Virus record (IMG/VR): IMGVR_UViG_3300032236_001299 | Location: 1 to 39,064 of that record | Origin: a virus | DNA length: 39,064 nucleotides | Strand: one strand, 5' to 3' | In this document: positions 36,926 to 38,171 of the stretch, in pieces | Numbering within the stretch: the stretch's first letter is position 1 | How the letters are laid out: each line of letters opens with the position of its first letter | Program-made: the position numbers and the translations under genes | Notes under the pieces: generated by a model | The model's database searches: none | The model's input: the letters and a program-made list of their open reading frames with translations, nothing else | Told to the model about the DNA's origin: nothing

Positions 36926-36946
36926 AACGGACATATTGCATCCGTT
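36926..36946. promoter_or_regulatory. Inverted repeat at predicted leftward start point
   Basis: AACGGA (36926-36931) and TCCGTT (36941-36946) are perfect 6-bp arms with a 9-base centre. They lie where transcription from the promoter at 36953-36981 should start, so the repeat could be an operator or a leader hairpin upstream of the exonuclease ribosome binding site. Confidence 0.55.
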
Positions 36947-36952
36947 CTGCAT

Positions 36953-36981
36953 ATCTTATAGCTGTTGCATTTGCCTGTCAA
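36953..36981 (-). promoter_or_regulatory. Leftward sigma70 promoter for the recombination operon
   Basis: On the minus strand TTGACA (36976-36981) is a perfect -35, followed by a 17-base spacer and TAAGAT (36953-36958), with TATAAG as an alternative frame of the -10. The predicted start lies about 36945, leaving a 40-base leader with AAGGAGAG before ATG 36905. All leftward genes down to 33015 can be read from it. Confidence 0.75.
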
Positions 36982-36994
36982 TAGGTATTACAAT
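36965..36994 (+). promoter_or_regulatory. Rightward promoter, possible leaderless start
   Basis: TTGCAT (36965-36970), an 18-base spacer and TACAAT (36989-36994) form a moderate sigma70-type promoter overlapping the leftward -35. The expected start point coincides with the A of ATG 37002, and no Shine-Dalgarno sequence is visible before that ATG. Confidence 0.5.
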
Positions 36995-37001
36995 TATTTT
37001 T

Positions 37002-37289
37002 ATGAGATACGCAAACAGAATTGACGCCAATCAAAACGCCATCGTGGACGCACTGCGCCAGTGTGGGGCTACGGTACGGATCATTAGCCAGGGTGGTGGG
37101 ATACCTGACCTGCTCGTGGGCTATAACGGTTACACGATCCTGATGGAAGTGAAGGACGGTGCTAAGGCACCCTCGGCGCGCAAGCTGACAGAGGACGAAC
37201 AGAAGTTCTTTGACGACTGGAGAGGTGGCATGTTGGCCATCGTGAATTCAGTAACGGAAGCGCTTGACTTACTGAAGGGTTGCGTTTAA
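37002..37289 (+). CDS. Small PD-(D/E)XK nuclease (VRR-NUC/resolvase-like)
   Basis: The 95 residues contain RIDANQNAIVDALRQCGATV and IISQGGGIPDLLVGYNGYTI, then LMEVKDG. D36 and E49-x-K51 form the PD-ExK active site of the restriction-endonuclease fold, as in VRR-NUC and small Holliday-junction-resolvase-like phage proteins. It is divergent from the recombination operon and seems to be translated from a leaderless or very short-leader mRNA. A role in branch resolution or end processing is inferred. Confidence 0.85.
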   Translation: MRYANRIDANQNAIVDALRQCGATVRIISQGGGIPDLLVGYNGYTILMEVKDGAKAPSARKLTEDEQKFFDDWRGGMLAIVNSVTEALDLLKGCV

Positions 37290-37367: not shown

Positions 37368-37383
37368 GTGTTAATATTTACAC
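37368..37383. promoter_or_regulatory. Degenerate relative of the dispersed palindrome
   Basis: GTGTTAATATTTACAC is a 16-bp near-palindrome with one mismatched pair. Its outer GTGT and TTTACAC match the dispersed site, but the central CG is replaced by AT. It starts one base after the terminator T run. Confidence 0.4.
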
Positions 37384-37466
37384 GTTGGCAAAACGGTTTA
37401 GCTCCGTGGGATGGCGAATATTAAAGAGTGTTGTGTCCTAACCCTGCTTCATGGGAATGCCAACAA

Positions 37467-37525
37467 CTATTGTTTCACATATATAGCAAACCCCATTCCT
37501 GCGCTATTGTTTCACATATATAGCA
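37467..37525 (+). repeat. Two 22-bp direct repeats (iteron-like)
   Basis: Identical 22-base copies lie at 37467-37488 and 37504-37525, 37 bp apart start to start. Each begins CTATTGTTTCACAT and ends ATATAGCA, with CTAT/ATAG short inverted ends. They sit 43-101 bp upstream of the -35 of the promoter at 37568. They could be activator or repressor sites, or replication iterons. Confidence 0.8.
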
Positions 37526-37567: not shown

Positions 37568-37597
37568 TTGACATTTATTTTTATTGTTTGATATACT
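37568..37597 (+). promoter_or_regulatory. Strong sigma70 promoter for the structured RNA
   Basis: A perfect TTGACA (37568-37573), an 18-base A+T-rich spacer and TATACT (37592-37597, five of six consensus bases) predict a start near 37604. No open reading frame follows; the next element is a structured sequence ending in a T run. Confidence 0.82.
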
Positions 37598-37603
37598 TCG
37601 GTC

Positions 37604-37716
37604 ACAGTTAGCAGTGGAATGCCAACTAAGAGTCGTTAATGAAATCCCGACCCCGTTATGGGGTTGCATGTCGAAAGGCATGTCATTCCACCGGGGTTTC
37701 ATTAACGGCTTTTTTT
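37604..37716 (+). ncRNA. Candidate structured ncRNA with pseudoknot
   Basis: From the predicted start, hairpin A (AGTT-A-GC / GC-C-AACT, 37606-37627) has loop AGTGGAAT. A 22-bp closing stem (37628-37649 with 37692-37713, a few G-T pairs) encloses ACCCC-GTTAT-GGGGT (37650-37664), then GCATGTC-GAAA-GGCATGT (37666-37683) with a GNRA loop. The single strand CATTCCAC (37684-37691) is complementary over eight bases to GTGGAATG (37614-37621) in and beside the loop of hairpin A, crossing the closing stem as a pseudoknot. A run of seven T (37710-37716) ends it. About 110 nt, no coding frame. No known class recognised. Confidence 0.75.
37628..37716 (+). terminator. Terminator formed by the closing stem of the ncRNA
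   Basis: The outer stem of the structured RNA ends with seven T residues (37710-37716), so the same stem would serve as intrinsic terminator. It also blocks read-through toward the small genes at 38172 and beyond. Confidence 0.7.
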
Positions 37717-37917
37717 ATTGCTCCACCCTACCTGTCTTCACAGGGTCTATCGGGTTTTGATCTGGCATGAGGGAAGCGTAGGAAGCGAAAGCGTAGTCCG
37801 CAGTCCACCAGTTCTACAACGTTCTTACCTGTGACGTACAGCGCAAAGAAGGTGCAAGCGCAATTGGGAGTGATGCCTTAAATGTCCGTGGTTCATTGCT
37901 GCGGGTGGCAGTTAAGG

Positions 37918-37969
37918 TTCGGGTAGCCAAGCTAGATAGTGTAAACGTTTACACTAGAAAGTACCCGAA
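37918..37969. repeat. 52-bp two-tier dyad around a 20-bp palindrome
   Basis: Outer arms TTCGGGTA (37918-37925) and TACCCGAA (37962-37969) are perfectly complementary. Between them, 37937-37956 is the perfect palindrome TAGTGTAAACGTTTACACTA. The unpaired segments are 11 and 5 bases. It could extrude as a cruciform or form a protein-binding complex. Confidence 0.8.
37937..37956. promoter_or_regulatory. Perfect 20-bp palindrome, best copy of the dispersed site
   Basis: TAGTGTAAACGTTTACACTA is the longest of the TGTAAACGTTTACA-type palindromes and the only perfect one in a long non-coding region. The other perfect copies are at 4016 and 7473. It probably marks the highest-affinity binding site of a symmetric DNA-binding protein. 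Confidence 0.75.
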
Positions 37970-38005
37970 GTCCGTAGGCGAAGCATGGCTCCGTCGGTGG
38001 AAAAT

Positions 38006-38032
38006 CCTAGGGAAGCCGAGCGCGTCCCTAGG
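38006..38032 (+). repeat. 8-bp inverted repeat
   Basis: CCTAGGGA (38006-38013) and TCCCTAGG (38025-38032) are perfect arms around an 11-base G+C-rich loop. There is no T run after it, so it is more likely an RNA structural element than a terminator. Confidence 0.65.
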
Positions 38033-38171
38033 CAGTTCTTTGTCCTCTCACATTCACCATCGGTGGAAATCATCCGTACAGACCAAGTGTTGTAAACCAC
38101 GCACTATCGTTTTCCCTAACCATTCTGGTGTAATTATGTGTACAATGGTGCACTTAGATGGAGGAAACAAC

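Follow-up and report, generated by a model that had tools for sequence, protein, structure and literature searches.

A pseudoknotted non-coding RNA family with its own promoter and terminator beside phage replication genes

The packaging RNA (pRNA) of phi29 is a short phage RNA, close in size to the element described here, whose loops form extra pairs; RNAs of this type bind the portal and assemble into a ring by loop-loop pairing. In the antitermination leaders lambda pR' and HK022 put, a short RNA and a terminator come immediately after a phage promoter, and further transcript lies downstream. Betaproteobacteria-1 RNA (RF02932) is found in phage or prophage settings beside replication genes. 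GOLLD and ROOL are structured phage ncRNAs that contain pseudoknots, and their function is unknown (PMC12286853). RNA anti-CRISPRs (Racr) are solitary small phage ncRNAs that act in trans and mimic host CRISPR repeats (PMC10651486).

We analyzed a stretch of 39,064 nucleotides (referred to as the window) from a 39-kb virus record, the structural genes of which lie on the left side. Judged from its sequence, positions 37604-37716 (+ strand) are a promoter-RNA-terminator unit specifying an ncRNA of ~110 nt between the expected start and the end of the U tract (referred to as RNA1). In contrast to phi29 pRNA, the loop of RNA1 pairs with its own junction, a terminator is built in, the locus lies beside replication/recombination genes, and there is no Rfam match; the phi29-type pRNA covariance model in Rfam did not match anywhere in the window. 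Unlike in the lambda pR' leader and HK022 put, the conserved pseudoknotted fold would take up the whole transcript, with the terminator stem closing it, and no antiterminator is known. Betaproteobacteria-1 shares the setting of RNA1 and lies directly downstream of it on the same strand in some loci, but corresponds to a second element (RNA2, see below), and RNA1 does not match it. GOLLD and ROOL are ~600-800 nt in length, whereas RNA1, without an Rfam match, is ~110 nt, and RNA1 differs from Racr in its complex multi-helix fold. We regard RNA1 as a new family of structured phage ncRNAs, whose architecture is also new.

The sigma-70-type promoter (37568-37597, + strand) consists of TTGACA (37568-37573), an 18-nt spacer, and TATACT (37592-37597), with a predicted start at ~37603-37605. 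In the P1 hairpin (37606-37627), AGTT (37606-37609) pairs with AACT (37624-37627) and, further in, GC (37611-37612) with GC (37621-37622); the inner pairs were 100% paired (GC, CG, AU, or GU). The P1 loop contains the 5' arm of the pseudoknot, GTGGAATG (37614-37621), whose 3' arm, CATTCCAC (37684-37691), ends one nucleotide ahead of the 3' strand of the closing stem; both were assigned by homologue comparison and covariation. The base immediately 5' of the 5' arm (X, 37613) covaried with X' (37665), a base in the linker between P3 and P4. The closing stem P2 (37631-37648/37693-37710) serves also as the stem of the terminator and encloses the P3 hairpin (ACCCC-GTTAT-GGGGT, 37650-37664), paired in all homologues but partly fixed by the search pattern, and the GAAA-capped P4 hairpin (37666-37683), which varies in sequence and length among relatives. 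The U tract of the intrinsic terminator (37710-37716) had at least five T in every aligned homologue.

An earlier note on this DNA had proposed a closing stem of 22 bp. The stem itself was retained, at 18 bp, because the larger number also counts pairs involving the U tract, which are present in the minimum free energy (MFE) fold. P2 was near-perfect, with a GC base followed by the U tract; its length of 18-19 bp, with a recurring base sequence of GCCGTT/AACGGC, exceeds what terminators usually need. The MFE of the nested fold was -53 kcal/mol, versus -26.5 +/- 3.4 for dinucleotide shuffles (z -7.75). As the note had stated, RNA1 has no coding frame: no start-to-stop ORF of at least 60 amino acids lies inside it, and a protein-coding reading was rejected because homologue lengths differ by single nucleotides, so that no frame is kept.

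Related contigs were gathered via their protein neighbors, independently of the RNA, and five of them contained RNA1 (L002, L003, L012, L013, and L014), while L010 carried a diverged copy. A degenerate pattern of the core then yielded 37 stretches in viral contigs. In the alignment used for covariation (A2; 31 homologues from environmental phage contigs), 97.0% of cells were paired, versus 87.6% after shuffling. Changes on both sides were found in 16 of 34 pairs (10 of 19 in P2) and 97 cells, versus 9.6 and 25.2 in shuffles; since the aligned sequences are kin, these double-change counts are not probabilities. The covariation score was 0.284 versus 0.105 for shuffled alignments (reached by none of 500), and shifting the partners by 1-3 columns abolished the signal. 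The columns that the search pattern held constant (P3, the top of P2, and CAC of the 3' arm) are uninformative, and all covarying columns were located elsewhere.

The pseudoknot was intact in all 31 aligned homologues with differing letters (GTGGAAT/ATTCCAC, GTGGAAG/CTTCCAC, GTGAGAA/TTCTCAC, GTGAGAG/CTCTCAC, and GTGGAAA/TTTCCAC), and the X-X' pair was also formed in 31/31 (UA 18, AU 6, CG 6, and UG 1). Between the window and L002, the flanks of which are 91-95% identical, P2 was unchanged, whereas the two arms of the pseudoknot had been altered jointly with X and X'. When G-U was counted, the full 7-bp pseudoknot was present in 59 of 59 scanned loci, including L010 (GTGGTTG/CAACCAC). Several independent-looking switches supported the predicted pseudoknot and extra pair. 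One P2 pair was U-G in 31/31, and further G-U pairs occurred at three P2 positions; since these would be A-C mismatches on the opposite strand, selection acts on the + strand RNA. Compensatory changes in the closing stem and the 8-bp pseudoknot, which the earlier note had proposed to look for, were therefore present in these 31 homologues, and the adjacency of the 3' strands of the two helices, also noted there, was found in all RNA1 classes that share this fold. The extra pair (37613-37665), the homologues themselves, and the flanking conserved elements (37383-37464 and ~37731-38075) go beyond that account. The fold was kept in dozens of related environmental phages despite changes in its letters, and RNA1 gives phage biology a strongly covarying RNA family of unusual topology, in which the partner strand of the pseudoknot adjoins the terminator strand.

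Across the class A loci (n = 32), the best-scoring TTGACA/TATAAT-like pair had a mean score of 10.3, versus 7.5 for shuffled sequences. The end of the -10 hexamer lay 12-19 nt from the pseudoknot arm in 31 of them and 25 nt from it in L003. With the promoter at this near-fixed distance, RNA1 constitutes a conserved promoter-RNA-terminator unit. The compact pseudoknotted RNA behind a strong promoter that the sequence had first suggested is real, on the grounds of covariation in homologues and promoter placement. Comparison among loci demonstrated the predicted helices, pseudoknot, and extra pair, together with the position of the putative promoter and the built-in terminator.

The claim that RNA1 belongs to no known RNA class agreed with Rfam 15: no match was found in the window at the gathering threshold (the best weak match over RNA1 was mir-191, 18.4 bits versus a gathering threshold of 54), and RNA1 was unmatched in 14 homologue loci. 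A type III toxin-antitoxin RNA (ToxI) was rejected because RNA1 is a single copy followed by non-coding DNA, not short tandem repeats and an endoribonuclease toxin gene. A pattern search for RNA1 gave no match in plasmids, nor in 84,980 species genomes of bacteria and archaea. Covariance model R1, described below, had one match in 401 genomes of the Variovorax family (Burkholderiales), L108, which was an ordinary terminator beside a tRNA. The locus of the window gave only chance matches to named phages by blastn, and with a consensus homologue, a single named record (MW202545) was matched. In this record (L076, 5947-6404), hypothetical proteins are annotated over RNA1 and the following element, and are probably spurious. 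We found no description of RNA1 in the papers searched; it is a real family that has apparently not been described before.

Membership of the RNA1 family was defined by a 5' hairpin with a pseudoknot arm, P2, a partner just ahead of the P2 3' strand, a U tract, and a promoter directly upstream, all of which RNA1 of the window has. R1 also reached diverged members. Outside the building set, it matched L093 (2.6e-22), L076 (8.1e-22), and L088 (1.1e-16), and, in shorter or differently filled classes, L031 (1.2e-6), L105 (2.1e-6), and L007 (4.8e-6); its minus-strand matches were discarded as mirror images of the palindromic stem. These diverged classes had in common only the architecture: the 5' hairpin, one or two inner hairpins, the partner strand directly ahead of the P2 3' strand, and the U tract. 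Each member formed a 7-8 bp pseudoknot in its own letters (GTCGTGT/ACACGAC, GTCGTAC/GTACGAC, GTAGTGG/CCACTAC, and GTTGCGA/TCGCAAC), and all of the ~17 pseudoknot sequences were still paired. The slot of RNA1 was also occupied by unrelated promoter-RNA-terminator units, namely, L040, L104, and class D (L025, L030, L043, L085, and L087). The class D unit, CAACGGATTGGTAACCCGTTGTAGTTC..., has a different fold and, by eye, a variable six-base complementarity of its own.

We give about an even chance to the reading, drawn from these sequence features, that RNA1 is a host-transcribed, self-terminating phage ncRNA acting in trans. Host sigma-70 RNA polymerase would start at ~37603-37605 and stop at the U tract, yielding a stable RNA of ~110 nt in which P2 would double as the terminator hairpin. 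The 5' hairpin loop and the segment just ahead of the P2 3' strand would form the pseudoknot of 7-8 bp, the extra pair would dock the linker of the inner hairpins onto it, and P1, the pseudoknot, and P2 would probably stack into one long rod. The mature RNA would be the product and may act in trans, because its whole length is used and the length and conservation of the closing stem exceed what termination requires. It would most likely bind a host or phage protein, as an RNP or a decoy, around infection, when the adjoining replication module is used. A regulatory or host-acting ncRNA, a decoy, and a ligand-binding element, as put forward in the earlier note, are candidate roles side by side.

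On the other hand, in 37 of 37 class A loci checked, a non-coding element on the same strand began within ~40 nt of the end of RNA1. It was of several types (11 of the 37 were assigned by eye, without a motif), and often a large structured RNA (RNA2). Since RNA1 was never found without such an element and always stood ahead of it, a link in cis is suggested, which counts against action in trans, and a role as a cis leader or attenuator has to be weighed: the strong promoter and pseudoknotted intrinsic terminator would set, or conditionally allow, read-through into RNA2, and the short RNA would be a by-product, as in the lambda pR' leader. Due to this strict coupling, we consider the cis leader the principal alternative, albeit less probable than action in trans. 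No sigma-70-like promoter was found between RNA1 and RNA2 (score of 7.08 versus 7.42 for shuffles). RNA2 followed a toprim gene directly, without RNA1, in L080, L082, L083, L084, L094, L096, and L102, and was elsewhere preceded by RNA1 or a class D unit. Furthermore, the unrelated units in the RNA1 slot (class D, L040, and L104) are easier to reconcile with a cis role than with a single specific function in trans. However, no antiterminator helix, a criterion for riboswitches, was visible: neither P2 strand had an alternative partner by eye, the stretch downstream is non-coding, and the terminator stem is the near-perfect one described above. Moreover, a third element (RNA3) intervened between RNA1 and RNA2, or was located directly behind RNA1, in L004-L007, L019, L047, and L056.

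RNA2 of the window (37731-38075, + strand; ends approximate) is a large conserved non-coding element directly downstream of RNA1. An alignment of 17 sequences of this type had a consensus fold of -59.9, versus -5.3 +/- 3.0 for column shuffles, and double changes in 31 of 58 pairs. MFE z-scores for the 250 nt behind RNA1 did not differ from those of control stretches (-0.57 versus -0.65); the case for RNA2 is thus one of covariation, not of folding energy. Its 3' end carried a variable copy (6-12 nt) of a segment ~60-70 nt upstream, a direct repeat that changed in step among phages; in the window, this was TCGGTGGAAA(A)ATC at ~37994-38006 and 38060-38071. Rfam identified RNA2 as Betaproteobacteria-1 (RF02932) in L052, L061, and L067, and its core motif was present in RNA2 of nine class A loci. 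In the chromosomes of Variovorax and Xenophilus, Betaproteobacteria-1 was located directly behind a toprim primase gene, and RNA1 was absent. This orphan RNA thereby gains a genomic context, and the host of the phage is probably a member of the Burkholderiales, as judged from the Betaproteobacteria-1 context only.

It is improbable, but less so than the remaining alternative, that RNA1 and RNA2 form one functional assembly, as a single transcript or two interacting RNAs, in the manner of large ornate phage RNAs, with arms that could pair between molecules to give multimers. The tandem order is invariable, RNA2 is structured, and great variation of the pseudoknot beside fixed parts elsewhere would suit a determinant of interaction specificity; however, no conserved complementarity between RNA1 and RNA2 was seen by eye (the match of CGGTGGAA in RNA2 with TTCCACCG in RNA1 of the window was lost in L003 and L012), and one RNA1 class precedes differing types of RNA2. 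It is very improbable that RNA1 is a strong terminator of the ordinary kind whose complementary arms arose by chance, or an element acting at the level of DNA: the 3' end of the fold is indeed a standard terminator, but the covariation of the pseudoknot and extra pair, the fixed promoter, and the strand-specific G-U pairs all argue against it.

An RNA3-like element lies upstream of the RNA1 promoter (37383-37464, + strand; 27 distinct motif matches among the loci examined). RNA3, of which the window carries a variant, has two hairpins, CGGGTTAGCGCCG and CACTGCTTTATGTG, enclosed by a closing stem; it belongs to no Rfam family, and occurred upstream of or between RNA1 and RNA2 in up to three copies per locus (L056). 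We tentatively consider that RNA1, RNA2, and RNA3 might belong to a modular island that unites several RNA families not yet described and lies at the replication module of a large group of environmental phages; in this island, RNA1 might be a pseudoknot-built terminator/promoter cassette or an RNP partner needed for RNA2. The findings point to a cluster of non-coding elements at this module that protein-centered annotation has overlooked.

Returning to the putative trans-acting RNA, no constant neighboring protein gene was found across loci; therefore, no partner of RNA1 is indicated. In the window, RNA1 adjoins a recombination set (a PD-(D/E)XK exonuclease, an Erf-like annealing protein, and a small nuclease-like gene at 36936-37289), and the genes around RNA1 across loci were those of replication/recombination: ParB-like, DEAD-type helicase, toprim primase, exonuclease, and RuvC-like (the ParB-like and RuvC-like labels are readings of the sequence without a Pfam match). 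A perfect direct repeat of 21-22 nt, TATTGTTTCACATATATAGCA, was located between the RNA3-like element and the RNA1 promoter (37467-37488 and 37504-37525), in a region where the near relative L002 was not alignable. A further motif, CAGTCCCCAGYCGTGTTGG...CCAACAA, recurred upstream of RNA1 in L009 (6440-6540), L013 (4600-4710), and L045.
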